From Runella slithyformis DSM 19594 (GTDB taxonomy: Bacteria > Bacteroidota > Bacteroidia > Cytophagales > Spirosomataceae), in contig NC_015703.1 in NCBI RefSeq assembly GCF_000218895.1, positions 1,735,501 to 1,799,500 of the forward strand: a DNA stretch of 64,000 bases. The letters run 5' to 3'. The notes beneath the pieces are model-generated. The model saw nothing but the letters and a program-made list of their open reading frames with translations, made no database searches and was not told where the DNA came from. The number at the start of each line of letters is the position of its first letter. Positions within the stretch are counted from its first letter, which is position 1. Of the stretch, positions 15,401-31,534 are shown one piece after another. Made by a program: the position numbers and the translations under genes.

Positions 15401-15790
15401 CGCCTTTTCTTCGGCCGACAGCGTCAGGTGTGTAGAAGGCTCGGGCATTACGTAGTCAGGGTCTTCTGACAAAATGCGGTGTACTACGTCGCTTTTGGCG
15501 GGATTGCCGGCCACAATGGCTTTCAGTCCGCTTTCGCATTCTTTGTCGTAGGCGGCATCGGCAATGTCCAAACGTAAATCTGCCTTTTGTTTATTCCTGT
15601 CCGGACCATGACAGGCAAAGCACCGGTCAGACAGGATCGGCTTGACGTGGAGATTGTAATCTACTTTTTCGGGCAAGTTGGCGGCGGCTTTTTCAACGTC
15701 CTGCGGCACCTCAATACTGCTGCCGCAGGCACTCACCAACGCCATAGCTGCCACCCCGAAACTCCAATGATAGAAAGCTCTTTTTTTCAT
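12455..15790 (-). CDS. PSD1-type lipoprotein with cytochrome c, DUF1549, LamG-like and DUF1553 domains
   Basis: The start at 15790 gives MKKRAFYHWSFG followed by the lipobox VSAC (Cys about 22); a start 33 bp upstream would bury this signal. In order there are a planctomycete-type cytochrome c segment with CFACH at about 57-61, a DUF1549 domain (about 165-400) with CARCHDHKYDP, a concanavalin/LamG-like region (about 530-690), and a C-terminal DUF1553 domain ending near residue 1080. The 1111-residue length fits the family. It should be a membrane-anchored periplasmic protein, co-transcribed with the DUF1501 gene. Families of this kind are abundant in Planctomycetes; the substrate is unknown. 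Confidence 0.85.
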   Translation of the reverse strand: MKKRAFYHWSFGVAAMALVSACGSSIEVPQDVEKAAANLPEKVDYNLHVKPILSDRCFACHGPDRNKQKADLRLDIADAAYDKECESGLKAIVAGNPAKSDVVHRILSEDPDYVMPEPSTHLTLSAEEKAILIKWIEQGAEYKPHWSFVAPASPEVPKVKNEGWVKNDIDRFILKKLEDKKLTGNVEAPKTTLLRRVYLDLTGLPPTPDQVEAFVKDTSPDAYEKVVNQLLRNPHFGEHHAADWLDVARYADTHGYQDDGPRNMWPYRDWVIKSFNRNLAFDRFVTWQLAGDMLPNPQKEHLIATAFNRNHQQSQEGGIVPQEYFVEYVADRTNTFGKAFLGLTVECARCHDHKYDPISQKDYYSLSAFFNNNNEYGQIPYNGEPSPSITLPKPATEKQLRVIKEKLSGIEKTQLQNASALRQRFEKWVAKSAQAPLISPQTALVIDVPFDSVSVRMAGEKKDKKRPLFTNLANDTLNLETNGDLDFLPVRIKSPRGKGVRLVGESYLQMRGINGWSQYKEVPTISGFFERNQPFTVSLWVGVTDPKFKGPLFNRNLGPFNGFRGYECERLEDGRLAFRLSNVWPDNAIDFETDYVLKANRWVHLTMTYDGSSKANGLKVYINGQRATGRVMSDGLRESMLWGKNHTNWGAGAPNFSIGQRHDYNYKGYAVDELKVFARELTPLEVHSVIGQKDFVRTALRTPPEKRTDFQKEGLFDYFVTNIDAENQQLLAERKQLLAEETELLNKEIDLMVMRERKYPRKAHILKRGAYDAVDQEVTADTPDQFFKIPKELPRNRLGLAQWLVHEENPLFARVMVNRMWQRYFGKGLVVSAEDFGNQGDLPTHLELLDYLAIKFRESGWNYKLLQKEIVMSATYRQSSVTKPELLESDPNNLLYARGPSYRISAEQVRDAALATSGLLSPHIGGPSVHPYQPDGIWEALATRNAVQYVQNHGDTLYRRSMYTIWKRSAPPPMMLNFDASERHFCSVRRQKTSTPLQALVTLNDPQFVEAARVLAQRSLRLTGGADSNAKSIIRIFTALTSRPPRASELEAMKQLYQEEYLDFLKNPKRAEELLKVGEFAVDTSLNKTELAAMTIVASTVMNFDEFVIKR

Positions 15791-15907
15791 CTTTACACTA
15801 CTGATACGGCTACTGAAACCCACTTAGTATAAAAAGTTGGTCCATAGGTAAATGTACTGAAAAAGAGCAAAAAATTTAAGGCAGGCTCCCAATGAAAAAT
15901 GCAAAAA

Positions 15908-15991: not shown

Positions 15992-17218
15992 TCAGGAAAT
16001 CCACTCCGTGATAAAATTAGGCTTTTCCTGTATTCGCTCAATCATCCAGGCCAGCGCCATAAGCATCATCAGTACCGCTCCCGTTTTTCTGACGATGGCA
16101 TAATAACGGGTTTGCGAAAGTAAAAGCAGAACGGGAAAAACGAGCAGAATGATGAACAACTGCATGAGTTCGATACCTACATTAAATCCAAGAATACTCA
16201 AAGCCATTTGTTTGACCGAGAGTTCCAAATTTGTCAATGTTTCGGCAAAAGCCAAGCCGTGAATCAGCCCAAAGGCTCCCGCAATGAGGACTTCCCATTT
16301 AGGATACACCGGTCGAAAAGCATGAAAGGCCGACACCAAAATCGTAAAAGCGATCAATATTTCGATGGGCTTGCTCGGAAAATGAAGCCATTGCACCGAA
16401 CCCAACAGCAATGTGAGCGAATGCCCAATGGTAAAAGCAGTGATAAGGCGTACAAGCTCCTTTCCACGATCGGTGTACCACCCCGCTTTTTTATCCCTTT
16501 GGGACGACGGTAAGCCGCGCGAAGGAAGCGGCTGCAGGGCTGCCAACAGCAATGTTATTACAAAAAGAATATGGTCAGTTCCTTCCGCGATGTGTTCTAT
16601 GCCCAGCTTCACCATATTTTGAAAGCCCTTCCAAAGGCTTCCATGCTGTAAACTGACCTGAAAAGGCAACAGTTTTCCATTGACGGCATCCCACTCAATC
16701 ACTCCCACCTGTTGCGTCACGGTATCTTCACTCACCTGTCCCTGCGCCCAGTCCTGTTTGATATGGATCAGGGTGCGGTGACTTGCTACCCGGTGTAAGA
16801 TCACGTCATAATCGAAGTAAAAATTACGCAGATCATAATGCTGAGGAGGCGCCATTTCAAAGGCTACCACCAATTCTTTGTATTCGCCGGCCAGCTTATC
16901 TTTGCTTTCGATGACTTTCATTTTGCCCAGCGTTACCGTCCAGGGCTTTCCTTCAAAGCTACGGGGACGGATATGCTGCTTCAGATAGCTCCGGAGAGAA
17001 TCTCCCAACCGCTCCACCAGGCGGTCGGAATGGTCATTGACGCTCATCCCGATCGCTGATTGCAGCTCACTCAATGGCAGCATGATTTCCCCCGAAATGT
17101 GTTTTTCGTGGATATTCAACACCACCATTGAGTTGGGCATAGGGTGAGCTAACGCCGGCAGCGCACCAAGCACTGCCAGCGTTAGTGTCACCCAAAATTT
17201 AAATTTAATTTCCGCCAT
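15992..17218 (-). CDS. HupE/UreJ-like membrane protein
   Basis: The 408-residue protein starts at the ATG at 17218; a GTG two codons earlier is possible. It has a signal peptide (FWVTLTLAVLGALPALA), an extracytoplasmic domain of about 170 residues, and about six membrane helices with GIEHIAEGTDHILFVITL near 215 and GLIHGLAFAETL near 315. The His-rich helix motifs match the HupE/UreJ_2 family, thought to take part in nickel or cobalt uptake. It overlaps the end of the DUF3500 gene by 14 bp, suggesting translational coupling and a shared role. Confidence 0.8.
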   Translation of the reverse strand: MAEIKFKFWVTLTLAVLGALPALAHPMPNSMVVLNIHEKHISGEIMLPLSELQSAIGMSVNDHSDRLVERLGDSLRSYLKQHIRPRSFEGKPWTVTLGKMKVIESKDKLAGEYKELVVAFEMAPPQHYDLRNFYFDYDVILHRVASHRTLIHIKQDWAQGQVSEDTVTQQVGVIEWDAVNGKLLPFQVSLQHGSLWKGFQNMVKLGIEHIAEGTDHILFVITLLLAALQPLPSRGLPSSQRDKKAGWYTDRGKELVRLITAFTIGHSLTLLLGSVQWLHFPSKPIEILIAFTILVSAFHAFRPVYPKWEVLIAGAFGLIHGLAFAETLTNLELSVKQMALSILGFNVGIELMQLFIILLVFPVLLLLSQTRYYAIVRKTGAVLMMLMALAWMIERIQEKPNFITEWIS

Positions 17219-18596
17219 AGTCACTTATTCTATCTCTCCATACTGAGTGAGGGTGGTTGGCATTTCTTACAATAATCCCTCCCTGCATCGAAAATTCAAT
17301 CCATACACTTGGTCCATCGATCAATACATAGTCTCCTTTGGAGGTAAGATCCGTTGTGCCATAGTAAGAGATATACGTGTTGTCAAGTTCTGATCTATAT
17401 TTGGCATATACGGCCGCCGCCGCTTTATCATCGAGATCATCCGTGTATGTTTTAATGGCCGCCAGTACCAGGTCTTTTTTCGCCTGCGTCAAATCACCCA
17501 CTTTTACTCCGGTTTTTGCGGTTGGGAACTTACCGTCCTGCCCCGGGCCGACAATAAGATCATTTTGTGCCGCTGAGCGCCTGCCCGTCGTAAGTTCAGC
17601 CGCACTTAACCCTTTGAGCATGGCGGAAAGTGCATTAAGTTCCTGTACAATGGGTTGGTAGGTGACATTTTTCCAGGTATAGCTTGGGAAGGGCTCGGTT
17701 GAACGGAAAGAAGGTGTTCCGCCGGTCATTTTACCGCCGTTATAGGTATAGATAATAGTCCCATGGTGCCCCCCGATCTGTAAACACCATAACCCGGTAA
17801 CACTTGGGGTACCGATGAAGGCAACGTAATAATTGCCCGAACCATAGTCTGAACCGCCCCCGATGGAGTTGAGGTAGTCATCGGCCGCCAAGATACCCAG
17901 GTATTCTTCATTTCCTTCATTTGCTGCCGTACTTGTAGCGGCTTTCAGAAGATTATAGAAGGCCGTCCATTGGGCGGTACTGAATGTACTTGACTGCAAT
18001 CCCGCTCTTCCTTTATACAATCCTTCGGGAAGGTTTGACCATTTCTGGGCGTGTGCTTTGTTGTAAGTATCCTGAAGCGACGTCACCTGACTCGAAGAAA
18101 GGGTGGCTTTAAAGGCTTCGGCCGTAGAAACAATGGCCGAAATATTGGTTTCAACGGCCCAACCGGTCCCGCCCGTTGCAGTACTTGCGGCATTGACCGT
18201 CAAGGCTATGGTACACGACTGACCGCCGACCGAAACCGCAAACGACGCGGTTCCTGCCGCTGACGGGGTACCCGTGACCGCAAAAACAACCGACCCTGCG
18301 CCCGAGGCCAACGTTCCGGCCGCCAAAGTGGCCGTAAGGCCCGTTACGCCCGTAGAAGCAATGGCGGTTCCGCTCGAATACGCGGCTCCGTTTCCACCCG
18401 TGTAGGGCACGGTAGCGGTGCCGGTGTAGGCGGTGCCTGCGGTAGCTGTAGCCGAAAACGTAACCGAAGCGCAGGTCAGTGCACTGACTGAGGCAGTGGC
18501 TGCGGGCGTAACGGAGGTGTTATCGGTTTTGTTACAGGCAATAATGAGGAAGGTTGTACTGAGCACAACACTTGCAAGCAAATGGTTGACTTTCAT
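17205..18596 (-). CDS. DUF3500 lipoprotein with Ser/Thr/Ala-rich N-terminal repeat domain
   Basis: The 463-residue protein has a lipoprotein signal (VVLSTTFLIIACNK, Cys about 21). An Ala/Thr/Gly-rich region (about 30-140) recalls a bacterial Ig-like domain and has unusually repetitive composition. A DUF3500 domain (about 150-455) follows, with NLPEGLYKGRAGLQ, YYVAFIGTPS and LWCLQIGGHHGTIIYTYNG. The paired His residues in GGHHG suggest a metal or catalytic site, but the family has no settled function. It is translationally coupled to the HupE/UreJ-like gene. Confidence 0.8.
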   Translation of the reverse strand: MKVNHLLASVVLSTTFLIIACNKTDNTSVTPAATASVSALTCASVTFSATATAGTAYTGTATVPYTGGNGAAYSSGTAIASTGVTGLTATLAAGTLASGAGSVVFAVTGTPSAAGTASFAVSVGGQSCTIALTVNAASTATGGTGWAVETNISAIVSTAEAFKATLSSSQVTSLQDTYNKAHAQKWSNLPEGLYKGRAGLQSSTFSTAQWTAFYNLLKAATSTAANEGNEEYLGILAADDYLNSIGGGSDYGSGNYYVAFIGTPSVTGLWCLQIGGHHGTIIYTYNGGKMTGGTPSFRSTEPFPSYTWKNVTYQPIVQELNALSAMLKGLSAAELTTGRRSAAQNDLIVGPGQDGKFPTAKTGVKVGDLTQAKKDLVLAAIKTYTDDLDDKAAAAVYAKYRSELDNTYISYYGTTDLTSKGDYVLIDGPSVWIEFSMQGGIIVRNANHPHSVWRDRISDYGGN

Positions 18597-21072: not shown

Positions 21073-22185
21073 TCATACTGTTTGCGGGATATACACTTCC
21101 CCCTTACTCAACAATCGCGCCGTACGAATAACGCCTGATTTCAGGATGTTGATTTCCCCGTTTTGAAAGGAGTATTCCAAACTTACCGTAAACTCACCCG
21201 AAGGATGTTCAATACTTAGGGATGAGTGATGAGCGATAAGTAATGAATTTTGCTTACTCATCACTCCTTGGCAAACAGTATCGGGGATTACACAGGCCGT
21301 AGCAACCGATACCGCCGCCAAAACCCCAATGGCCTCATGGACTACATGCGGGATAAACATACGTGTATTGATCACTCCGCCATTTTCCGGCGGCGACACC
21401 AAACACATTTTAGGAATAGTTTGGTCTTTTACGTCGCCCAAATGCATTAGATGCCCGGCTTTCAGCCGAATAGCCTCAACTTTTTGCCTGAGCGGTTCGT
21501 TGGCTTCGAGTGCCTCTTTGGTTTCATTGCCCATTAAACCAAAATCACTTGCGCGCATAATGACGATGGGCATCCCGTTGTCTATGCAGGTTACTTCTGT
21601 TCCTTCAATGAGGTCTGTGGCTTTTCCGGTGGGCAGGAGCGCTCCACAGGTAGAACCAACCGTATCTAAATAATTGCAAACAATAGGCGCTGCCGTACCC
21701 GGTACGCCATCTACTTTGGCATCGCCTTGGGTTTGGATCTGTCCGTTGGGAGTCTGTACCGTTACTTCACATATTCCTCCCGTATTAACGATGTTTATTT
21801 TGGCAGACGTAATAGGATGTGTAGCCTCAATAAGCCCCGATTCGATGGCGAAAGGGACAATTCCCGCCAAAATATTTCCACAGGTTTGGGTCGTCGATAC
21901 CTTGCCTTTACCTACAACTACCTGCACAAAAAGGTAATCTAAATCGGCCGGGCGGCGTCCCGCTTCAGGCGCTTTTGATTTGCTGACAATGGCCACTTTG
22001 CTGGTCAGCGACGTAGCTCCGCCCAACCCGTCGATCTGCCGGGGGTCGCCCTCGGTCGTGCCTTCCATGGCCAGCAGCAGGCAGCGGTTTCGCTCGTTTT
22101 CGTCCGCGGGCAGGTCTTCGGCTCTGAAAAAAAGCCCTTTGGAGCTCCCGCCCCGAAGTTGCATGAATGGAATGGCTCTCTGCAT
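21073..22185 (-). CDS. galD: 4-oxalomesaconate tautomerase (PrpF family)
   Basis: The 370-residue PrpF-fold protein matches GalD of the gallate pathway over its whole length: MRGG-type start (LRGGSSKGLFF), RQIDGLGGATSLTSKVAI, CGNILAGIVPFAIESGL, DGVPGTAAPIV, CGALLPTGKATD, TCIDNGMPIVI, LGDVKDQTIPKM and IEHPSGEFTV. It should interconvert keto and enol forms of 4-oxalomesaconate in the cytoplasm. Its ATG directly abuts the stop codon of the DUF1932 gene, so the two are coupled. A palindromic repeat is embedded in frame in a variable loop near residues 305-325 (see 21224-21266). Confidence 0.88.
   Translation of the reverse strand: MQRAIPFMQLRGGSSKGLFFRAEDLPADENERNRCLLLAMEGTTEGDPRQIDGLGGATSLTSKVAIVSKSKAPEAGRRPADLDYLFVQVVVGKGKVSTTQTCGNILAGIVPFAIESGLIEATHPITSAKINIVNTGGICEVTVQTPNGQIQTQGDAKVDGVPGTAAPIVCNYLDTVGSTCGALLPTGKATDLIEGTEVTCIDNGMPIVIMRASDFGLMGNETKEALEANEPLRQKVEAIRLKAGHLMHLGDVKDQTIPKMCLVSPPENGGVINTRMFIPHVVHEAIGVLAAVSVATACVIPDTVCQGVMSKQNSLLIAHHSSLSIEHPSGEFTVSLEYSFQNGEINILKSGVIRTARLLSKGEVYIPQTV
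21224..21266. repeat. Palindromic repeat inside the galD coding sequence
   Basis: GAGTGATGAG (21224-21233) pairs perfectly with CTCATCACTC (21257-21266), extended inward by TAAG (21237-21240) with CTTA (21253-21256). It encodes the stretch MSKQNSLLIAHHSSL just before the conserved IEHPSGEF. The bases resemble the GAGTGATAAG ends of the four-helix-bundle cassette 3 kb away, suggesting a repeat of that family taken into a coding sequence without breaking the frame. Confidence 0.6.
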
Positions 22186-22965
22186 TCAGTGTAATAGTTT
22201 TTCCAAATTATCTCTCGTTGCGCGGGTCACAATCGGATCCAGATGCTGTGTTTCCAACATCTCGATCACGGCTTCCATTTCGTGCATTCGGCGGAGGGCG
22301 TGGGTTTTGCTGCCTTCCACAAAACGGTCGATCAAATCGTCATTGCCGCCGATCAATGAACTGATCTGAGCACGGATGTAGCTTTCCATGCCAAAGGCTT
22401 CACCTGCTTCCATGGCTTCACATACCACGGCCGCGATGCCTTTATAGACAATCGAACGCAGAAGCTTCCGGGTGGCGGCATCGCCGATTTGGCCGTTTTT
22501 GACCATCGAAATATCCAAATTCAACGGTTTTATTTTCTCCAAAAACGCAGCGGCCTCTTCGCCCGAAGCCAAAAGCGGTGTCATGATGCCTTTGGGCGGC
22601 ACAGGAGCCATAATGGCTAAATCGACCATTTTTACCCCTGATGGCGCTAAGATCTCGGCTATTTTCTTCTTTTTTTCGGGACCGGAGGTGTTCATTTCGC
22701 AAAAAAACTGTTGGGGCTGCAAAACACCGGCCAGTTCTTCCGCAATTTCCACCGACACCGACGACAGATTAGCACTGAAGATTATATCTGCCATCCGGGC
22801 GGCCTCGGCATTGCTTTCTTTGACCACAACGGAAGGGTGCAACTTTCGAACGGGTTTAGGGTCATAACCCGTTACGGCGACACCCATTGCCGCTAAGTCA
22901 TTGGCAAAATGCGAACCTGCTTCGCCAAGCCCCAAAACCGCTATTCGTAACTCGTCATTCATCAT
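22186..22965 (-). CDS. NAD(P)-binding dehydrogenase, 6PGDH-like with DUF1932 domain
   Basis: The 259-residue protein has an N-terminal Rossmann domain (IAVLGLGEAGSHFANDL at about 7-23) and a C-terminal DUF1932-type helical domain (KLLRSIVYKGIAAVVCEAMEAGEAFG near 168). The family is related to beta-hydroxyacid and 6-phosphogluconate dehydrogenases. It lies within the gallate-type operon, between the aldolase and galD genes. The textbook gallate route has no dehydrogenase step, so its substrate is open: it may oxidise or reduce a side product or serve a second aromatic acid. Confidence 0.75.
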   Translation of the reverse strand: MMNDELRIAVLGLGEAGSHFANDLAAMGVAVTGYDPKPVRKLHPSVVVKESNAEAARMADIIFSANLSSVSVEIAEELAGVLQPQQFFCEMNTSGPEKKKKIAEILAPSGVKMVDLAIMAPVPPKGIMTPLLASGEEAAAFLEKIKPLNLDISMVKNGQIGDAATRKLLRSIVYKGIAAVVCEAMEAGEAFGMESYIRAQISSLIGGNDDLIDRFVEGSKTHALRRMHEMEAVIEMLETQHLDPIVTRATRDNLEKLLH

Positions 22966-22977
22966 GCGTACGTGTTT

Positions 22978-23598
22978 TTAATACCCAAATTTCTCATCCC
23001 AGCCATAGATCTGAATCGAAGTCCTTCCTTTCCGCAGCTCTGCTCGCGTTCGTTCTTCTTTGGCTTCACGGGCGGCCGCTTTTTCGATGGTTTCTTCCAG
23101 TTTATGGAAAGGCACCACCACCACCCCGTCGCGGTCGCCCACCACGATATCTCCCGGATGTATGCGTACATCGCCAATGATAATGGGCTCATTGAGCGTT
23201 CCGTCGCCGTGATTGGACGTACCGCGAATACACAGGCCCCTCGAAAAAACGGGGAATCCCATGGCTTCGATATCATCGGCATCCCGTACGCAGGCATCAA
23301 TGACCAAGCCGTTAATACCTTTGGTTTTGGCACCCAAACTCATCAGATCACCCCAATAGCCTGCTTCATAAAAGCCCGAGCAGTGGACGAGCAGCACATC
23401 GCCCGGGTTGGCATACGCATACGCCCGGTGCAGCAATACATTATCACGCGGCATGGTCTGAACCGTATACGCAGGCCCGCACACTTTCATGGGTGCGGCA
23501 ATGGGTTTGATGGCCGAAGGCAGATTGCCTTTATTGCCAAGGGCTTCACAAATCGTAGCTGCCGAAAATCGGCTGAGTTGTTTGATAAGATCATCCAT
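22978..23598 (-). CDS. ligK: 4-carboxy-4-hydroxy-2-oxoadipate aldolase, RraA family
   Basis: The 206-residue protein has the RraA/class II aldolase fold with TICEALG near 16, CGPAYTVQ near 39, GDLMSLGAKTKGINGLVIDACVRD near 83-105 and GDIVVGDRDGVVVVP near 150. Arg and Asp of the VRD motif bind pyruvate and the metal in this family. It should split 4-carboxy-4-hydroxy-2-oxoadipate into pyruvate and oxaloacetate; equivalents are GalC, LigK and ProA. It lies 4 bp after galB and 12 bp before the dehydrogenase gene, in one operon. Confidence 0.88.
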   Translation of the reverse strand: MDDLIKQLSRFSAATICEALGNKGNLPSAIKPIAAPMKVCGPAYTVQTMPRDNVLLHRAYAYANPGDVLLVHCSGFYEAGYWGDLMSLGAKTKGINGLVIDACVRDADDIEAMGFPVFSRGLCIRGTSNHGDGTLNEPIIIGDVRIHPGDIVVGDRDGVVVVPFHKLEETIEKAAAREAKEERTRAELRKGRTSIQIYGWDEKFGY

Positions 23599-23602
23599 GG
23601 TT

Positions 23603-24316
23603 TTAAAAGAGCGATTTTACCACTCGCGGTACGTGGCTTTGGAAGGCTTCGGCGTATTTTACGTCTTTTTGTCCCGAAATTCGGCGGGCATGATTGGCCC
23701 TTCGGGAGGCCAATTCGGCGTAGTAATCTCTCAGATATTTTTGAGCGCCCATGCAGTCCATCGCGGCGAGTTTTTTCTCAAAAACCGACGAGATATCCAC
23801 AAAGGTATCGGGCAAAAATTCGCAGATTTCGGGTTGATGCGGCTCAAACGAGTACCACATCGGCGGGTCAATGTTCTTAAACGCGCTCGGCACTCCCGCT
23901 CCGCACGACAATAACCTGGCTCTTTCTGTAGCCTGATACGCCAACGGATGGTCAGGGTTAAAGGGATCTTTGGCGGTGTGGGTCAAAATGACGGTGGGCT
24001 CAAAATCGCCGATGATTTGGGTAAGTTGTTCGATACGCTCGTTGGAAATCAACATCGGATAATCGCCCCAATCCAAAAACCGAATGGGTGTTCCGAGAAT
24101 ATCGGCTGCTTTTTGGGCCTGCTCATGACGAATGGCTTTTACGCTTTCTTCGCTGCGCTTTGGGTCTTCTTTCCACAGTTCGCCCGACTCACCCCGCTCA
24201 CCGTACGACATACAAATGACGAGTGTTTCGGCGCCTTCTTCTACGCTTTTGGCAATAACGCCTGCCGAACGCCAAACAAAATCGGCAGAGTGCGCTCCCA
24301 AGACTAATAATTTCAT
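23603..24316 (-). CDS. galB: 4-oxalomesaconate hydratase, PIG-L family (GalB type)
   Basis: The 237-residue protein has the PIG-L zinc fold, but its usual AHPDDE motif reads AHSADF (His about 9, Asp about 12), the form found in GalB of the Pseudomonas gallate pathway. Further shared features are SYGERGESGELW near 38-49, FLDWGDYP near 80, and DHPLAY with a metal-binding His at about 123. GalB hydrates 4-oxalomesaconate to 4-carboxy-4-hydroxy-2-oxoadipate. The gene is followed within 4 bp by the aldolase gene that uses its product. Confidence 0.87.
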   Translation of the reverse strand: MKLLVLGAHSADFVWRSAGVIAKSVEEGAETLVICMSYGERGESGELWKEDPKRSEESVKAIRHEQAQKAADILGTPIRFLDWGDYPMLISNERIEQLTQIIGDFEPTVILTHTAKDPFNPDHPLAYQATERARLLSCGAGVPSAFKNIDPPMWYSFEPHQPEICEFLPDTFVDISSVFEKKLAAMDCMGAQKYLRDYYAELASRRANHARRISGQKDVKYAEAFQSHVPRVVKSLF

Positions 24317-24322
24317 TGTGAA

Positions 24323-24852
24323 AGATGAGTTATGAGTGATAAGAGATGAGTGTAAAAAACAGTGTAACCAAGACAGCCAAAGAGCCTACCTTTATACCTA
24401 AATTTTTATTTTTGGTTAAGATAGAGCTTCGGATCATTCGCATCATTTCTTCTGAATCATTATGCATTGACTCAAATTCCTTTTCATTAAGATATGCTGT
24501 ATGAAAAAGCAACTCTAACCAATACTGTGTTTCACTCAATTCTTTTTGTGCGATACCCAATTTATGTATAAAATCCATGGCCGATTCTGCATTGTTAGCT
24601 TCTCGTACCATTGCTCCCGGGTTTGTACCCGCTCTCAATAGCTGTTTACTGATTACAAATTCACTCCTGTCAGTAGTTAAATGTTTATATAAATTAACAA
24701 TACGAATGGAAAAACTCAACGATTTCTCCTTTAATGGACTATGTTTAGCCATACTGTTATTGAATTGAAAATGAGGAATTAACAAACTCGATTTTGGTAT
24801 TTATTTTCAGTTGAAGAATTACTCATCTCTTATAATTCATCTCTTATCACTT
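24323..24852. mobile_element. Candidate repeat-bounded cassette carrying a four-helix-bundle (S23/IVS-like) gene
   Basis: The space between galB and the dioxygenase gene is filled by a unit of about 530 bp. Its ends hold the perfect 15 bp inverted repeat AGTGATAAGAGATGA (24335-24349) and TCATCTCTTATCACT (24837-24851), with a second TCATCTCTTAT copy at 24823-24833. The cassette gene ends inside the left repeat, and the dioxygenase stop codon touches the right one. Without the unit the two flanking genes would be almost adjacent. In a transcript the ends would pair into a long stem, as in the intervening sequences of some 23S rRNA genes. Confidence 0.55.
24330..24752 (-). CDS. Four-helix-bundle protein, S23/23S rRNA IVS-like family
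   Basis: From the ATG at 24752 the protein has 140 residues (MAKHSPLKEKSLSFSIRIVN). LKEKSLSFSIRIVNLYKHL, SKQLLRAGTNPGAMVREANNAES and FIHKLGIAQKELSETQYWLELL are the conserved blocks of the four-helix-bundle family first seen inside 23S rRNA intervening sequences. Avd proteins of diversity-generating retroelements are relatives, but no reverse transcriptase is near. It has a hydrophobic C-terminal tail encoded partly by the repeat. It sits in the gallate-type operon with no evident metabolic role. Confidence 0.82.
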   Translation of the reverse strand: MAKHSPLKEKSLSFSIRIVNLYKHLTTDRSEFVISKQLLRAGTNPGAMVREANNAESAMDFIHKLGIAQKELSETQYWLELLFHTAYLNEKEFESMHNDSEEMMRMIRSSILTKNKNLGIKVGSLAVLVTLFFTLISYHS

Positions 24853-25807
24853 AAAGAAACTCCTCCGGCATGGGATTCCCTCTGGTGTGAAAACTCTCCA
24901 CAGTTTTTAGTCCCCACGCCTGCCCTTTCAGGCGCTCTTCGCGGTTCCAAACGACGGTTTCATAGTCGGGGTCGAGGATAAGACGGGCAGTGGCATTGGC
25001 CACTTCGATTCGGTTGCCGCCGGGTTCGTAGAGGTATAAGAAAAACGTTTGCTGAATGGCATGTTTGTGAGGGCCTGTTTCGATAAAAATGCCATTTTCG
25101 AGGGCAATATCGGCGGCAATCAGGATTTCTTCCCGGCTGTTGGTCGCATAGGTAAGATGATGCAAACGTCCGTTCAGGCCACTGTGATCTTCGGTAATGG
25201 CCAAATCATACGATTTATTATTAACCGAAACCCATACCCCTTTGGGCCCATCTTCAAACTCTATTCGTTCGGTGTTTCTGCCGCCCAAGATTCCAAACTG
25301 AAAATCGGCAAAGGCCCGAATATCTTTTGCTAAAAGGTTCAGGTGATCTATTCGTCTGACGTTTGCTCCGCGGGCCGGGTACTTACTGGCGGTATTTTTC
25401 AACGCCGATTGCATCGTGCCTTCGGCTTTGTATTTGTGGGTGTCAAAGTAAATTTCGCATCGGTGCCCGTCCGGATACCGGAATTGATACGCCTTTCCGT
25501 AGCCGCATTCGTGGTCGGTCCAGCCAATGCCTAAGCCGCTCGCTTCGATGGCCTTTGCGCGATGTTGGAGTGATTCTTCGGTACGGGTGCGCCACGCAAA
25601 ATGCCCGATGCCCGAATGTTTATGGGCCGTTAGTTTGAGCGAATGATGCTCATAGTCGTCGTATGCCCGCAGATAGGCCGAATCACCCTCAATGTCTGAA
25701 ACATACATCCCCAATATTTCTGTAAAAAAGCGAATGCTTTGATCCAATTTCGGGGTGAGCAGTTCGACATGCGCCAAGTGAGCAAGTTCCCAAGTGATGT
25801 TGTTCAT
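24851..25807 (-). CDS. VOC-family type I extradiol ring-cleavage dioxygenase
   Basis: The 318-residue protein has two VOC modules. The C-terminal one carries the expected 2-His-1-carboxylate iron site: His at about 155 (RRIDHLNLLA), His at about 216-217 (GRLHHLTYAT) and Glu at about 268 (GGNRIEVAN). This is the catechol 2,3-dioxygenase/BphC architecture. The position between tannase and GalB, aldolase and GalD genes implies that it opens the ring of gallate or a close relative. Known gallate dioxygenases belong to the unrelated LigB fold, and none is encoded here. The substrate is inferred from context. Confidence 0.8.
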   Translation of the reverse strand: MNNITWELAHLAHVELLTPKLDQSIRFFTEILGMYVSDIEGDSAYLRAYDDYEHHSLKLTAHKHSGIGHFAWRTRTEESLQHRAKAIEASGLGIGWTDHECGYGKAYQFRYPDGHRCEIYFDTHKYKAEGTMQSALKNTASKYPARGANVRRIDHLNLLAKDIRAFADFQFGILGGRNTERIEFEDGPKGVWVSVNNKSYDLAITEDHSGLNGRLHHLTYATNSREEILIAADIALENGIFIETGPHKHAIQQTFFLYLYEPGGNRIEVANATARLILDPDYETVVWNREERLKGQAWGLKTVESFHTRGNPMPEEFL

Positions 25808-25821
25808 TTTAATTTATTCGT

Positions 25822-25888
25822 AGAGCCAAGGCAGGCCTTGTCTGTGGCATTTTAATGTGTTTGCAGAGACAAGGCATGCCTTGTCTGT
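25822..25888. repeat. Two copies of a 24 bp palindromic repeat
   Basis: Two 24 bp units at 25822-25845 and 25865-25888 agree at 22 positions. The second has the perfect palindrome ACAAGGCATGCCTTGT at 25869-25884; the first has CAAGGC-AG-GCCTTG. They occupy the 92 bp gap between the tannase and dioxygenase genes. They look like members of a REP-type family and could also alter read-through between the two genes. Confidence 0.7.
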
Positions 25889-25899
25889 ACGTTTAAATT

Positions 25900-27348
25900 T
25901 TATTTGCAAATTCCATCCATCCAATTGAATAATTCTTCCAAGTCATAATCGCCGCTATGGGGGCGATCCCAGGGCAGGGCAAAATCAATGGCAAAACCTT
26001 TGTTTTTGAGCGCCGCAGCCAATAATACGGGAATGGCAAAGCCCGTATCTTTGTCTTTGGCCCCGTGCCGAACTCTCCAGTAGGCCGCCGTCTTAGCCCC
26101 TTTAGCTCCAATATAATTCATGGGGTTCATCATTTTTATCTGCTGTGCCTCGGCCATGGATGACAGGTTGTTGGGAGAATAGTGAAGGGCAAAAGGAGTA
26201 AAATGACGTTTATCAACGGTGGCACTGCCAAACAGCTGATTTTCGGGCGATGTATTGTCAAGAGCGTCAAAAGCGGGGGGAGTTTTCATTCGTTCCAGGT
26301 AGGTCATATAGCCATCAAAATCAACCGAAAGCACCTTTCCGTCTTTTATTTGCAGAAAATCATACTTTGCTATATCTACCCCGGCCGTCAGAGCTTTCTG
26401 CGCCGATGCCGCCAAAAACGATTTCACATACTCTTTAAAGCTGCCTTCTCCCTGCGCATTCAATTCCAGTTTTTTACCCGCATCGTCTTTCAGGTTCAAC
26501 CCGTTGACATAGGTCGGGAAAGCCTTCTTCAGCTCGTCCGACACCTTAAGCGCTTCAGCATCCAAGGTGCCTTCTCTACCGCGAAATTTGAAAGCGTGGA
26601 TTTTATTCAACTGCCATTCGTACGCCATATCGGCATTTTCGAGGTTGATAATGGGGCAGTATGCTGACACCGCAAAGATATGATCAGTGGCATCGGCCGC
26701 TCCCAGCGATTTCAGTAAAGGCTCATAATCAGGATGATTGCCGGTGGCGCCCAATAGTGCAGACATGGCTCCCCCTGCGCTTGTGCCGTTTGAAATGATC
26801 TTATTGGCATCACCGGGAATAGCGGCATCATTGGCTTTCAGGTACCGTACGGCCGCTTTCAGGTCTACAATACCCGCGGGTGCTTTTCCCGACGGAGATA
26901 TTCTGCCTCTTGCCCCGGCCGAAGCCACCACATAGCCTTTAGACAAAGCCGCCAAAACGGATGAACCCTGATTGCCTCCCGGCATAGGTCCTCTTTGCGG
27001 TGAGGCTTTAAAAGTGGCCGGCAGGGCAGGCATGTAGCCGCCGACTCTGTTCGGGAAAAATATCGGCGCGGTCTGAGCGGTATATCCATTGATGCTTTGG
27101 CCGTTGAAGTACGCTTCCGGAATATAAATGTTCAGCACCTGTTGCGTCGTATCCACGGGATTTGCCACGTACACGATTTTTTCGTAGGCTCTGACGTTGA
27201 CGGTTTTACCGTTCAACTCCTGCGATTGAAGGGTAAATTTGGATGGGTCAAACCGAAGCGCGCCCTGCGACTGACCGCAGACGGTATTCGCAAACAAGGC
27301 ACCGACCGCAAAAAGCAGGTTGGCAGGAAATTTTTGACGGATGAACAT
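25900..27348 (-). CDS. Secreted tannase (tannin acyl hydrolase, subtype B)
   Basis: The 482-residue protein has a signal peptide (KFPANLLFAVGALFANTVCG). Over its mature length it closely follows the Lactobacillus tannase pattern: VLNIYIPEAYFNGQSINGY near 71-89, GYVVASAGARGR near 138, NGTSAGGAMSALLGATGNHP near 187, AYCPIINLENADMAYEWQ near 229, and a C-terminal DFALPWDRPHSGDYDL. The predicted triad is Ser about 190, Asp about 434 and His about 464. It should hydrolyse galloyl esters and depsides outside the inner membrane, releasing gallate for the downstream genes. The match is by remembered family sequence, not by search. Confidence 0.88.
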   Translation of the reverse strand: MFIRQKFPANLLFAVGALFANTVCGQSQGALRFDPSKFTLQSQELNGKTVNVRAYEKIVYVANPVDTTQQVLNIYIPEAYFNGQSINGYTAQTAPIFFPNRVGGYMPALPATFKASPQRGPMPGGNQGSSVLAALSKGYVVASAGARGRISPSGKAPAGIVDLKAAVRYLKANDAAIPGDANKIISNGTSAGGAMSALLGATGNHPDYEPLLKSLGAADATDHIFAVSAYCPIINLENADMAYEWQLNKIHAFKFRGREGTLDAEALKVSDELKKAFPTYVNGLNLKDDAGKKLELNAQGEGSFKEYVKSFLAASAQKALTAGVDIAKYDFLQIKDGKVLSVDFDGYMTYLERMKTPPAFDALDNTSPENQLFGSATVDKRHFTPFALHYSPNNLSSMAEAQQIKMMNPMNYIGAKGAKTAAYWRVRHGAKDKDTGFAIPVLLAAALKNKGFAIDFALPWDRPHSGDYDLEELFNWMDGICK

Positions 27349-27443
27349 TTGATCGGAAGGTTTTCTGGAGAAACAGTTTGGGCAAAGAGCCCCCTGATCG
27401 AAGCAAATAAATGCCTCGACCGAGAGAATACAGCACGAAAAAA

Positions 27444-28613
27444 TTACAGTTTTACATTCGAGAGCTTAATGGCATTTTTACCGCTTGGCTGTTTTACTTC
27501 GTAGGCCACAAGCAATTGATTATTAGCCACTAATGCAGCGACATTTGCTGCATTCAGGGATTCTTTTACCCAACCGGTTTCGGAGACTTTATCGGCCTTT
27601 ATCGTTTTAAGCGCAATTTGAGACGTATTGGTTTCGGGATTCAGCTGCTCCCACAGTAACACGGAAGCAGAGGGAGAAGATGTTAAAAACGCATTTTTGG
27701 CCGCCGCTTCCAGCACCAATAGCTTTTTGCCTTCTTCCGTAACCAAACGAATACCGGGTTCGTTGGTTGTACCCGAAAACCAGGAGATCAAAGCACTGCC
27801 GCCGTACACACTTGAGGTGGCACCGCTGTGAGGGCAGCCGTTGATCTTCCAGCCGTCGTTGTGCAAAATCTGCGGCGCAGAAAACGTGGCCCCGTTGTCG
27901 GCAGAAGTCATTTTGGCCATGTCGCGAATGTTGTCGTTGTTGTCGCGGTAATACACATTCAATGCTCCTTTGGCATCGACCAGCAAACTGATATTGCAGC
28001 AATCGCACACGACGGGGTCAATGACTCTTTCGGGCTGAAAAACACCGTTTTTGGTCAATACCAGGCGCAGATCACGCTCTTCAAATTTGGTGCTGCCGGC
28101 CACATCCTTTAAATACGCCACAGCAATTTCATCATTAGGTAATACCACGGCGTCAAAAAAGCCCCTGGTGCATTTGGTCGGGTCGGTATCCACAGGTTTA
28201 GGTGCGGTCCAGGTGGTACCTTGGTCAGTAGAAACACAAAATACAATATCCGAAGCCCGCTTTCGATCGGCGCTCTCTACGCGGTTGGAAAAAACAGCGA
28301 CCAGCGAGCCGTCTTTTTTTGCCAATACTTTGGCCCGCATCAGACGACTATTGCCGATGCCGTTTCCGGAGAAGATTGTTTTTTTATCGGAGAAAGTGGC
28401 ACCCTTGTCTTTGGAGGTCGCCAAACAGAAAGATGTCATCCCGGCGGCATCTTTTTCGGTCCATGAAAGCAGTACATCGCCTTTGGGCGTTTGGGTCAGC
28501 AGCGGCATGGAGTAGGCTTTGTCGGCCGCGTCCAATACGGGTTGGGCAAAAGTCTGATGACTGAAACACACCATCAGACAGCCGATGACGGCGAGGGTGA
28601 TTGTACGAAACAT
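27444..28613 (-). CDS. Secreted BNR/Asp-box repeat protein (sialidase-like propeller)
   Basis: The 389-residue protein starts with a signal peptide (MFRTITLAVIGCLMVCFSHQ...TFAQ) and holds Asp-box turns ATSKDKGATFSD near 67, VSTDQGTTWTAP near 128 and SADNGATFSAP near 238, each in a blade-like unit. This is the six-bladed sialidase/BNR fold, but the catalytic Arg triad and Tyr of true sialidases were not found with confidence. It is the first gene of the tannase cluster, 95 bp upstream of the tannase gene, and may bind or trim a plant polyphenol or glycoside. That role is guesswork. Confidence 0.7.
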   Translation of the reverse strand: MFRTITLAVIGCLMVCFSHQTFAQPVLDAADKAYSMPLLTQTPKGDVLLSWTEKDAAGMTSFCLATSKDKGATFSDKKTIFSGNGIGNSRLMRAKVLAKKDGSLVAVFSNRVESADRKRASDIVFCVSTDQGTTWTAPKPVDTDPTKCTRGFFDAVVLPNDEIAVAYLKDVAGSTKFEERDLRLVLTKNGVFQPERVIDPVVCDCCNISLLVDAKGALNVYYRDNNDNIRDMAKMTSADNGATFSAPQILHNDGWKINGCPHSGATSSVYGGSALISWFSGTTNEPGIRLVTEEGKKLLVLEAAAKNAFLTSSPSASVLLWEQLNPETNTSQIALKTIKADKVSETGWVKESLNAANVAALVANNQLLVAYEVKQPSGKNAIKLSNVKL

Positions 28614-28728
28614 TGCGAGTGGAGTTTACGTGAAAACATAATTACTGTTCTCAACTGCAAATTTCACCCTTTTATTCTGTATCCATCGGAGATTATTTTT
28701 ACTATTGTAGATAAAAATCGAACATTTT
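28614..28728. promoter_or_regulatory. Divergent control region between the tannase cluster and its likely AraC regulator
   Basis: This 115 bp spacer separates the minus-strand cluster from the plus-strand AraC-type gene. GTGAAA at 28630-28635 and TTTCAC at 28662-28667 form an inverted pair. GAAATTTG on the minus strand (28658-28665) is one base off the TAnnTTTG element. These are weak signals, but the divergent layout is typical of a regulator controlling the neighbouring operon. Confidence 0.4.
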
Positions 28729-29607
28729 ATGAGTAACGACAAACCCATTCTCAATTTTGAAGGGCTGTACGGCGATCTGAACAGCCGTTATTCGTCGGAA
28801 TATATTTTTCTGGAATTGATCACGACGCGCAGTCAACTTTTTGATTGGGTAATTCAGCCGCATATTCACACGCATCTTTTTCAGCTTTTTATCGTTGAAA
28901 AAGGGCAGGTTACCTTTCAAAACGATACTCAACTCAAGACCTACGCCGGGCCGTGTATCTTTATGATCCCTCCTACCATGCTGCATGGATTAACCTATAC
29001 CCCCGATGTGTCCGGGCATATCCTGACTATTTCAGAAACAATTATGGAAGCTATTTTTCAAACATCGTCGGCCGTGTGGCAATCTTTCCATAAAATCCAT
29101 ATCATCCAAAATTTTGACGAAAATGAGCCTTTTGAAACCTTCACCGCACTGATCAAAGCCATCGAAAAAGAATTGTTCGGAGAATATTCGGAACGGGATG
29201 TGATGCTGAAAACGTACTTCACGCAATTGTTCGTAAAACTGCACCGCATGGTGACACAGGGAGAAGAGCAAAAAAAGGACGACGTGACGATGAGCCACTT
29301 TCGAAAATTTCAGAAGAAGATCAAGGAAGCCAATGCGCCTAAAAGTATTCCGGAGTTTGCGGATGAACTCCACATTACGCCTGTTCATCTCAACCGAATC
29401 TGTCGTGCGGTAGCCGGTAAGTCCGCTATTCAGCTGGTGCATCAAAATCTGATTGCCGAAGCGCAGAAATACCTGCTGCATACATCGTATTCGGTCTCTG
29501 AAATTGCGTACCTGCTTAAATTCGAGTATCCCAACTACTTCGCTAAATTGTTTAAAAAATACGTAGGGATGTCGCCGGTCGAATTCAGGCAACGGGACAG
29601 AAAGTAG
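28729..29607 (+). CDS. AraC-family transcriptional regulator (PobR/HpaA-like)
   Basis: The 292-residue protein has an N-terminal cupin sensor domain (QPHIHTHLFQLFIVEKGQVTF near 44-64, IPPTMLHGL near 84) and a C-terminal two-helix-turn-helix AraC domain (about 195-290; ITPVHLNRICRAVAGKSA, SVSEIAYLLKFEYPNYFAKLFKKYVGMSP). The sensor half resembles regulators of 4-hydroxybenzoate and hydroxyphenylacetate catabolism. It is transcribed away from the tannase cluster and is the obvious candidate activator, perhaps responding to gallate. Confidence 0.85.
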   Translation: MSNDKPILNFEGLYGDLNSRYSSEYIFLELITTRSQLFDWVIQPHIHTHLFQLFIVEKGQVTFQNDTQLKTYAGPCIFMIPPTMLHGLTYTPDVSGHILTISETIMEAIFQTSSAVWQSFHKIHIIQNFDENEPFETFTALIKAIEKELFGEYSERDVMLKTYFTQLFVKLHRMVTQGEEQKKDDVTMSHFRKFQKKIKEANAPKSIPEFADELHITPVHLNRICRAVAGKSAIQLVHQNLIAEAQKYLLHTSYSVSEIAYLLKFEYPNYFAKLFKKYVGMSPVEFRQRDRK

Positions 29608-30211: not shown

Positions 30212-31534
30212 ATGACCGTGTTGAAAAATATTCTGAACAAAGCCCGTGGTTTCCTACTGATAACCCTCCTTTTAGTAGGTACCCGCAACGCGTATGCTTT
30301 TTTCCCCGATCATGGAGTGGCCACCACTGAGTATACCCTTGTGGTAGAAGGTTTCGATTGGGGGCCGGCCGTAAATAAAGTGATTGTCGGACTGGACGCT
30401 CCTGCCTCAACGGTGGATTTTAAAGATTTCAGCGTTTCGGTAGAAAGAAGCCACAATTGCGCTGATATTCCGGCCAATCAGGCCAAAGGGAACAGAAGCG
30501 TTGTGTATGCGTATATTTCTGACAGCCGGGGCAAAAGAGTAAAAGAAGGCACCTTCGCGACCTTGGTTTTGGGGGTGGCTCCGAATATGCCCTTGGGCTC
30601 CCCATTCCAATATTCACAAAAAGCGGGATGTCGTGGCAATACTTGGGTGGATTATAAAGTGACTGTCACCGATACCAAAAACAATAAGACCTGGAATAAG
30701 GAGAAAAACCGCCTCATGCCATTGGTCGATGACTTTGACCTTACCGGTAAATTTAAGTACGAAGAAGGCAAAGCCATGTCGTACGCATCTTTCACTCCTA
30801 AAAACAAAGGGGCAAAATCGCCACTCATCATTTGGCTTCACGGCGGCGGCGAAGGCGGCACGGACCCTACGATTCCGTTGCTTGGCAACAAGGCCGCCAA
30901 TTACGCTTTTGCCGAAATGCAGACTTTTTTCGGGGGCGCGTATGTACTGTCACCGCAATGTCCGGGCGCGTGGATGCACAATAAAAACGGCGTAACGACG
31001 CATGGAGAGGAGGAGGACGTATACAACAAAGGGTTAATGGCGCTTATCAAAGACTTTGTCAATACTCATCCCGATATAGATAAGAAGCGAATTTATGTAG
31101 GAGGCTGCTCCAACGGCGGTTATATGGCGTTGAAACTGATCTTAAACGAACCCGGCTACTTTGCAGCCGGATATATCAGTGCGTTGGCGTATCAATCGCA
31201 GTTTATTTCTGACCCACAGATAAAGAGCATCAAAAACGTACCGATTTGGTTTGTTCATTCAAAAGATGATGCGACCACGGTTCCCGAAAAAACGGTAGTA
31301 CCTGTATATCAGCGCCTGAAAGCTGCCGGGGCAAAGAACGTTTACTTCAGCTATTATGACCATGTAACTGATCTTTCGGGCTTTTTCGGTGGCGAAAATT
31401 ACTATTATACCGGGCATTGGTCCTGGATATATTCCCACGTCAACCATGCTAAAACGGATTTTGACGGCTCATTGGTAAAACTCAACGGTAAGCCGGTGAC
31501 GATCATGGAATGGATGGCCGCGCAATCAAAATAA
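30212..31534 (+). CDS. Secreted alpha/beta-hydrolase (esterase/peptidase-like)
   Basis: The 440-residue protein has a signal peptide (LLITLLLVGTRNAYA), an N-terminal beta-rich domain (about 35-170) and a C-terminal alpha/beta-hydrolase domain. The oxyanion HGGG is at about 210-213 and the nucleophile motif GGCSNGGYM has Ser at about 300; an acid in HSKDDATTVP and a late His complete a plausible triad. The form is that of secreted esterases and PHB-depolymerase or prolyl-oligopeptidase-like hydrolases. Its nearness to the tannase cluster makes a phenolic-ester substrate possible but unproven. Confidence 0.7.
   Translation: MTVLKNILNKARGFLLITLLLVGTRNAYAFFPDHGVATTEYTLVVEGFDWGPAVNKVIVGLDAPASTVDFKDFSVSVERSHNCADIPANQAKGNRSVVYAYISDSRGKRVKEGTFATLVLGVAPNMPLGSPFQYSQKAGCRGNTWVDYKVTVTDTKNNKTWNKEKNRLMPLVDDFDLTGKFKYEEGKAMSYASFTPKNKGAKSPLIIWLHGGGEGGTDPTIPLLGNKAANYAFAEMQTFFGGAYVLSPQCPGAWMHNKNGVTTHGEEEDVYNKGLMALIKDFVNTHPDIDKKRIYVGGCSNGGYMALKLILNEPGYFAAGYISALAYQSQFISDPQIKSIKNVPIWFVHSKDDATTVPEKTVVPVYQRLKAAGAKNVYFSYYDHVTDLSGFFGGENYYYTGHWSWIYSHVNHAKTDFDGSLVKLNGKPVTIMEWMAAQSK

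Follow-up and report, generated by a model that had tools for sequence, protein, structure and literature searches.

A probable operon for tannin and gallate utilisation in Runella slithyformis with a type I dioxygenase in the place of GalA

In Pseudomonas putida KT2440, the gal cluster comprises GalA, GalD, GalB, GalC, GalT, GalP, and GalR, and the inducer is 4-oxalomesaconate, which acts through GalR (excerpts of PMC9942251). The gallate dioxygenases that we saw described are type II enzymes of the LigB family (AromaDeg, PMC4250580, and DesB, PMC3962378; also from excerpts). Here we describe a cluster of genes in a stretch of 64,000 nucleotides from Runella slithyformis DSM 19594 (the window; all coordinates refer to this whole stretch). 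The cluster lies between 21073 and 29607 and encodes a tannase, relatives of GalB, GalC, and GalD, and a ring-cleaving dioxygenase. Judging from gene content and conservation, it is probably an operon for the utilisation of hydrolysable tannins and gallate, in which a type I dioxygenase is a non-orthologous replacement of the type II GalA. The pathway itself is known, and tannase-family genes near gallate genes have already been seen in sequence from another phylum. What is new, as far as we searched, is the type I enzyme at the position of the gallate dioxygenase and a subfamily-wide change from histidine to tyrosine within it.

Genes of the cluster

The genome that we searched has 6,919,729 bases in 6 contigs, and the window comes from a contig of 6,568,739 bases. 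The table of open reading frames confirmed a co-directional run on the minus strand, from 28613 down to 21073, and a divergent AraC-type gene on the plus strand. In minus-strand order, the run encodes a BNR-repeat protein, the tannase, the dioxygenase, an IVP/four-helix protein (IVP is short for intervening sequence protein), GalB, an RraA-type aldolase, a DUF1932 oxidoreductase, and GalD. The successive intergenic gaps are 95 bp (BNR to tannase), 92 bp (tannase to dioxygenase), 65 bp (dioxygenase to IVP), 13 bp (IVP to GalB), 4 bp (GalB to aldolase), 12 bp (aldolase to DUF1932), and 0 bp (DUF1932 to GalD), and 115 bp separate the AraC and BNR genes. The original prediction, which was made from the sequence alone, was thus right about the tight spacing (0-95 bp) and the divergent regulator; it had overlooked the BNR, IVP, and DUF1932 genes. 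Scans for promoters and terminators gave results near the chance level (15 found versus a mean of 13.1, and 15 versus 12.4, respectively).

Equivalents of GalD, GalB, and GalC/LigK, the gallate-pathway set, are all present in the cluster, as had been claimed. GalD (4-oxalomesaconate tautomerase; 21073..22185, on the minus strand like the rest of the run) scores 482 bits against NF033377, above the cut-off of 440, and matches the oxalomesaconate isomerase 6p3j in the PDB (350 bits). GalB (4-oxalomesaconate hydratase, of the PIG-L family; 23603..24316, minus strand) passes no NCBIfam cut-off; its best match in the PDB is a 4-oxalomesaconate hydratase (5cgz, 220 bits), and the next match has 33 bits. 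The RraA-type aldolase (LigK/GalC; 22978..23598, minus strand) scores 194 bits against NF006731, above the cut-off of 179, and 138 bits against PDB entry 3noj.

The tannase (25900..27348, minus strand) is of subtype B: it scores 638 bits against NF041556 (cut-off 300), and it matches the PDB tannases 6yq4 (448 bits) and 4j0c (436 bits). It is apparently exported, with a Sec-type signal that was judged by eye. (The PF07519 model has no match in the genome, nor in any control genome, and is the wrong model for this tannase.) We mapped the protein onto the tannase of Lactobacillus plantarum, whose residue roles are given in the excerpted text of PMC4233993; the offset in numbering was derived from chain lengths. 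The catalytic triad is Ser190/Asp432/His464, and all three galloyl-binding residues (Lys355, Glu369, and Asp434) are intact. The triad had been predicted as Ser190/Asp434/His464, of which the serine and the histidine are correct. Because Asp434 aligns with Asp421 of the L. plantarum enzyme, it is a galloyl contact and not the catalytic acid.

A type I dioxygenase with tyrosine at the acid-base position

The dioxygenase of the cluster (24851..25807, minus strand) is not GalA. It is a type I enzyme, from the VOC superfamily, and is related to catechol 2,3-dioxygenases. It matches only VOC-type families (302 bits against TIGR03211, below the cut-off of 320), with no match to the LigB domain, which in GalA is accompanied by LigA. 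For comparison, GalA from Klebsiella has both LigB and LigA domains and scores 827 bits against the GalA model. So the original prediction was correct that the cluster encodes a ring-cleaving dioxygenase of an extradiol family, and mistaken in implying the GalA (LigB-type) route.

Nor did we find LigAB elsewhere in the genome: its one match to the LigB family is a 4,5-DOPA dioxygenase (330 bits versus a cut-off of 233), and the LigA model has no match in this genome or in any control genome. The GalA model has no match in 222 genomes from the family or in any control genome, although it does recognise GalA from Klebsiella. Because the LigA and GalA searches lacked a matching control, we give them weight only in combination with the LigB search, which matched in 4 of 14 control genomes. 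The genome does encode a separate catechol 2,3-dioxygenase (C23O), with different neighbours, that is 36% identical to the cluster's enzyme and has histidine at the key site discussed below; we therefore rejected the idea that the cluster's enzyme is the ordinary catechol dioxygenase of this organism.

The AlphaFold model of the dioxygenase (mean predicted local distance difference test, or pLDDT, of 87.4) is closest in fold to AphC (7q2a; TM score 0.91, 40% identity) and also resembles HPCD (1f1x; TM score 0.82, 27% identity). AphC acts on alkylcatechols and HPCD acts on homoprotocatechuate. The 2-His-1-Glu metal ligands (His155, His217, and Glu268) are intact in the window enzyme and are invariant in our alignments. 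The column of HPCD's His200 is different: it holds tyrosine in all 82 subfamily sequences (the window enzyme, where it is Tyr200, 80 relatives, and PDB entry 9wgj), and histidine in AphC, HPCD, and the C23O paralogue of this genome. Tyr200 is also invariant in a set of 23 sequences that includes members from the family and from plasmids. In HPCD, His200 shuttles a proton, and the rate without it is vanishingly small, according to excerpts of PMC10760822. We speculate that Tyr200 takes over the proton transfer or that the histidine can be dispensed with because gallate has a third hydroxyl. The tyrosine does not separate the relatives that are linked to GalB from those that are not, so it marks the subfamily rather than gallate use as such.

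The closest solved sequence is 9wgj (327 bits), which shares the tyrosine and was deposited as "Catechol 1,2-dioxygenase." We found no paper that mentions 9wgj in the open-access literature, which leaves out most subscription journals. Possibly it is a member of the same group, and its depositors may have characterised it already.

Our tree of the dioxygenases is a quick one (a careful search is unfinished), and the long branches leading to HPCD, AphC, the genome's own paralogue, and 9wgj are uncertain, so we used it for close groupings only. The window dioxygenase groups with those of Emticicia (91-92% identity) and not with those of R. aurantiaca and Runella sp. CRIBMP (L077 and L078; about 69%). 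Other genomes from the genus (G168 and G169) carry forms that are 84-91% identical. The window's LigK and a nearby gene for a PSD1 protein are 92-93% like those in Runella loci. An Emticicia-like dioxygenase beside Runella-like LigK and PSD1 genes suggests gene exchange inside the cluster.

Conservation of the cluster and its neighbours

Across the 222 genomes of the family, the dioxygenase has a match (E = 1e-20) in 47 genomes, and close relatives (at least 64% identity) are found in 32. The matches outside of the close relatives fall into a second group, with identities of about 31-39%. (One of the close relatives, a 77% match in G170, is cut off by the end of a contig.) GalB (E = 1e-40) is also found in 32 of the 222 genomes, and these are the same 32. 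Counting 31 fetched loci and the window, GalB is present in all 32 loci, LigK in 30, and GalD in 28, and every miss of LigK or GalD is at a contig end. It had been proposed to look for the same arrangement in related genomes, and indeed the dioxygenase and GalB recur together at 31 further loci, and where the contig does not break off, LigK and GalD are there too. This recurrence is far beyond chance. Samples from across the phylum (395 genomes) agree with this linkage but do not provide an independent test, as GalB and the dioxygenase are found together only in the window's genome and in G161, from the same genus.

Ten of the 32 cluster genomes lack any match to the LigB family (E = 1e-5). 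Four of these are 80-89% complete, and six are at least 90% complete, including the single-contig genome G200. The other 22 cluster genomes do have a LigB match, and we saw no association between LigB and the cluster (Fisher p = 0.12). Because the counted genomes are related, our Fisher values overstate independence.

The tannase is found in 19 of the 222 genomes, and 15 of these are among the 32 with the cluster (Fisher p = 2e-11, from related genomes); in the other four (G048, G058, G097, and G216), a tannase is present but the gallate core is not. At the cluster itself, the tannase gene is present in 11 of the 32 loci, and all six of the catalytic and galloyl-binding residues are kept in 11 of 11 proteins. 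The original prediction that a tannase is joined to the hydratase, the aldolase, and the tautomerase is accurate for the window, but describing the cluster as a dedicated gallotannin island went too far: with tannase at just 11 of 32 loci, we view it as accessory to a conserved gallate core. Other loci have a COesterase (10 of 32) or a BD-FAE esterase (4 of 32), and some esterase of these three kinds is present at 20 of the 32. These varied esterases, which occur in sister clusters with or without the tannase, imply that the esters may differ between hosts. They also raise the question of whether gallate is the main substrate of the dioxygenase, or whether it acts instead on a trihydroxylated or methoxylated relative such as 3-O-methylgallate, a galloyl ester, or pyrogallol. 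Related dioxygenases of SYK-6 do take gallate, protocatechuate, and 3-O-methylgallate (excerpts of PMC3962378). However, cleavage of pyrogallol would not give a carboxylated intermediate for GalD, GalB, and LigK to act on; there is no demethylase among the cluster proteins that we scanned; and the window's tannase retains its galloyl-binding residues. We consider a different main substrate to be unlikely.

The DUF1932 protein (22186..22965, minus strand; PF09130 and PF03446) is an NAD(P) oxidoreductase that resembles beta-hydroxyacid dehydrogenases. Its gene is in the run at 27 of the 32 loci, which would fit a different pathway, namely the 4,5-cleavage of protocatechuate. The type I enzyme would form 4-carboxy-2-hydroxymuconate-6-semialdehyde (CHMS), the DUF1932 protein would oxidise it to 2-pyrone-4,6-dicarboxylate (PDC), and the core enzymes would finish the pathway. 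Equivalents of GalB, LigK, and GalD do serve in the 4,5-cleavage of protocatechuate as well. But there is no PDC hydrolase (LigI-type) among the scanned proteins of the cluster; three loci (L036, L044, and L045) that have GalB, LigK, and GalD genuinely lack the DUF1932 gene; and DUF1932 genes accompany type II gallate dioxygenases as well as type I clusters. Furthermore, the genome contains PobA and a protocatechuate 3,4-dioxygenase in a separate cluster, which argues against the operon serving protocatechuate, and the tannase has galloyl-binding residues. We rejected the 4,5-cleavage of protocatechuate, which is quite improbable given the lack of a LigI-type protein in the cluster and the 3,4-dioxygenase elsewhere. 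(In L040, from the same genus, a single frame of 647 amino acids at 16271-18214 fuses the DUF1932 and GalD proteins.)

To look beyond the family, we scanned one genome per species and kept the best 80 of at least 540 relatives of the dioxygenase. GalB lies within the fetched stretch for 41 of these 80, including all 17 loci from Bacteroidota, 9 of which are from genomes in the family count. Loci with GalB are also found in Chloroflexota, Acidobacteriota, and Deinococcota, and some loci from Acidobacteriota are without it. In four Bradyrhizobium genomes (L099, L106, L113, and L133), the dioxygenase and GalB are 26-28 kb apart on the same large contig. On plasmids from Agrobacterium tumefaciens, A. 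vitis, Thioclava, Rhizobium etli, and Roseibium, the genes for the type I dioxygenase, GalB, LigK, and GalD are grouped in a single run; in A. tumefaciens (from walnut), the run is followed by a tannase-family gene, which we confirmed as PF07519. In Pseudomonas oryzihabitans and Klebsiella aerogenes, the same partner genes occur with GalA instead. A Pseudomonas plasmid has a tannase-family gene, by annotation only, about 8 kb from gallate genes.

Several observations weigh against a gallate pathway with a type I dioxygenase. Type I enzymes have been described as needing the histidine that is replaced by Tyr200, and one characterised C23O was inactive on pyrogallol or protocatechuate (excerpts of PMC8671467). 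The aldolase falls below the cut-off of a narrower model (TIGR02798, ligK_PcmE; 179 versus 304 bits), and the known gallate pathway has no step for the DUF1932 protein. For 39 of the best 80 relatives of the dioxygenase, GalB is not in the fetched stretch: it is elsewhere in the genome for 32 and not in the genome for 7. Among five plasmid loci that we picked by the dioxygenase (L062-L066), four contain GalB; the fifth, from Roseomonas, has no GalB in the stretch, and the type I enzyme is beside a LigB protein. Finally, we used GalB to choose 10 plasmid loci (L162-L171) out of 40 that were listed, from a total of 128 records. Within 7-8 kb, the type I enzyme is present at 3 of these loci and GalA at 2; 5 have neither, and none has both. 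A ring-cleaving enzyme is thus not a constant companion of the GalB-LigK-GalD core. (One of the five without a nearby ring-cleaver is from Pantoea sp. At-9b, where a different plasmid encodes a related dioxygenase.) In two of the five, L164 and L171, genes for tripartite tricarboxylate transporters adjoin the core, and the fetched stretch contains no ring-cleaving dioxygenase. It is possible that these two sets act on an imported tricarboxylate, and the core may serve other substrates besides gallate.

These plasmids could be taken to mean that GalB, LigK, GalD, and DUF1932 form a general module for processing tricarboxylates and that the dioxygenase and the tannase simply lie nearby and belong to no common pathway. 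Yet the dioxygenase and GalB occur in identical sets of genomes among the 222, and the same run of genes is found in several phyla, which makes this reading very unlikely. Overall, the tannin-to-gallate pathway that was originally predicted is well supported, except for the identity of GalA.

The AraC-family regulator (28729..29607, plus strand) was predicted to be similar to PobR/HpaA; it is HpaA-like, but its score against TIGR02297 (HpaA) is 150 bits, below the cut-off of 275. It is 39% identical, over 288 amino acids, to a paralogue beside the genome's own protocatechuate (pca) cluster. A match is present at 27 of the 32 family loci, although the one in L050 is just 26% identical and is on the same strand. 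It is likely to be the local regulator of the cluster. The IVP/four-helix protein (24330..24785, minus strand; 91 bits against TIGR02436, and PF05635), a four-helix bundle of the 23S rRNA intervening sequence type, is found at 2 of the 32 loci and is probably not part of the pathway. (L033 has three IVP/four-helix reading frames between the core genes, and its LigK is split into two pieces.) The BNR-repeat, sialidase-like protein (27444..28613, minus strand; PF13088, 60 bits), whose gene is the first of the run, has an apparent signal peptide, judged by eye, and is found at 3 of the 32 loci.

We also noticed several other neighbours. Genes for a DUF3500 protein (an apparent lipoprotein) and a HupE/UreJ_2 membrane protein, at 15992-18596 of the window (minus strand), are less than 9 kb from the core at 10 and 7 of the 32 loci, respectively. 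They lie on either side of the core and are also present at two loci from other groups (L076 and L082). They are possible accessories of tannin or gallate use; the predicted fold of the DUF3500 protein is too poor to interpret (pLDDT 63.6). A planctomycete-type protein of 1122 amino acids (PSCyt1-PSCyt2-Laminin_G-PSD1) is encoded downstream, at 12455-15823 (minus strand), and relatives at 92% identity adjoin the cluster in L051 and L052. Just past the regulator, at 30212-31534 (plus strand), is an esterase with an EstA Ig-like domain, and we saw nothing matching it in the 31 fetched loci of the family. In L032, L034, L035, and L038, GalD is followed by a conserved series of genes for DUF4405, DUF819, 2OG-Fe(II) oxygenase, and chromate-transporter-like proteins.

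The proposed pathway and known gallate clusters

In the pathway that we propose, the exported tannase, given its conserved residues, would cut galloyl esters and free gallate outside of the cytoplasm. Gallate might then be imported by an aromatic-acid symporter. There is no transporter gene within the window's cluster; such a symporter is found at 10 of the 32 family loci, and this genome has one beside its protocatechuate cluster (348 bits against TIGR00895, below the cut-off of 418.55). The type I dioxygenase would open gallate to 4-oxalomesaconate, which would be the new step. By similarity to characterised enzymes, GalD would tautomerise 4-oxalomesaconate, GalB would hydrate it to 4-carboxy-4-hydroxy-2-oxoadipate (CHA), and LigK/GalC would split CHA into pyruvate and oxaloacetate.

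We lean towards a broader view as well: that type I gallate dioxygenases, with tyrosine in place of the acid-base histidine, are a widespread class that takes the place of the type II GalA in Bacteroidota, Chloroflexota, Acidobacteriota, Deinococcota, and many Alphaproteobacteria, and that they cleave their trihydroxylated substrate with a transfer of protons for which His200 is not required. In the open-access literature, which leaves out most subscription journals, we found no description of a type I enzyme as a gallate dioxygenase and recognised none of a joined tannase-gallate unit in Bacteroidota. If we are correct, then searches for GalA or LigB underestimate how widely gallate catabolism is encoded, including among Bacteroidota that may encounter tannins from leaves, and the cleavage of gallate's ring has a second evolutionary origin. 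It would also explain genes that are annotated merely as "catechol 2,3-dioxygenase" or "VOC family protein," and it would provide a natural test of type I extradiol catalysis without the catalytic histidine.

Compared to AphC (7q2a) and HPCD (1f1x), the window's dioxygenase has the same fold and the same 2-His-1-Glu metal site, but it has tyrosine where they have the acid-base histidine, and it is just 40% and 27% identical to them. The window's tannase shares its catalytic triad and its three galloyl-binding residues with the tannase of L. plantarum (4j0c and 3wa6), but unlike that enzyme, it precedes genes of a ring-cleavage pathway. The plasmid clusters from A. tumefaciens (L064) and A. vitis (L169) likewise carry GalB, the type I dioxygenase, LigK, and GalD as a single run with an esterase after it. 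These esterases (from the PF07519 tannase family in L064, and a "carboxylesterase" by annotation in L169) are not from the TanB family, and the plasmid clusters also differ in that GalB comes first, ABC transporter genes adjoin, and there is no adjoining AraC gene. Lastly, the gal cluster of P. putida KT2440 and the window have equivalents of GalB, the GalC-type aldolase, and GalD in common, and we propose that the intermediates and products are the same. The window differs in having a type I dioxygenase instead of the type II GalA, an AraC-family regulator where GalR is of the LysR type, and a run that includes a tannase and DUF1932 but no gene for a transporter or a porin.

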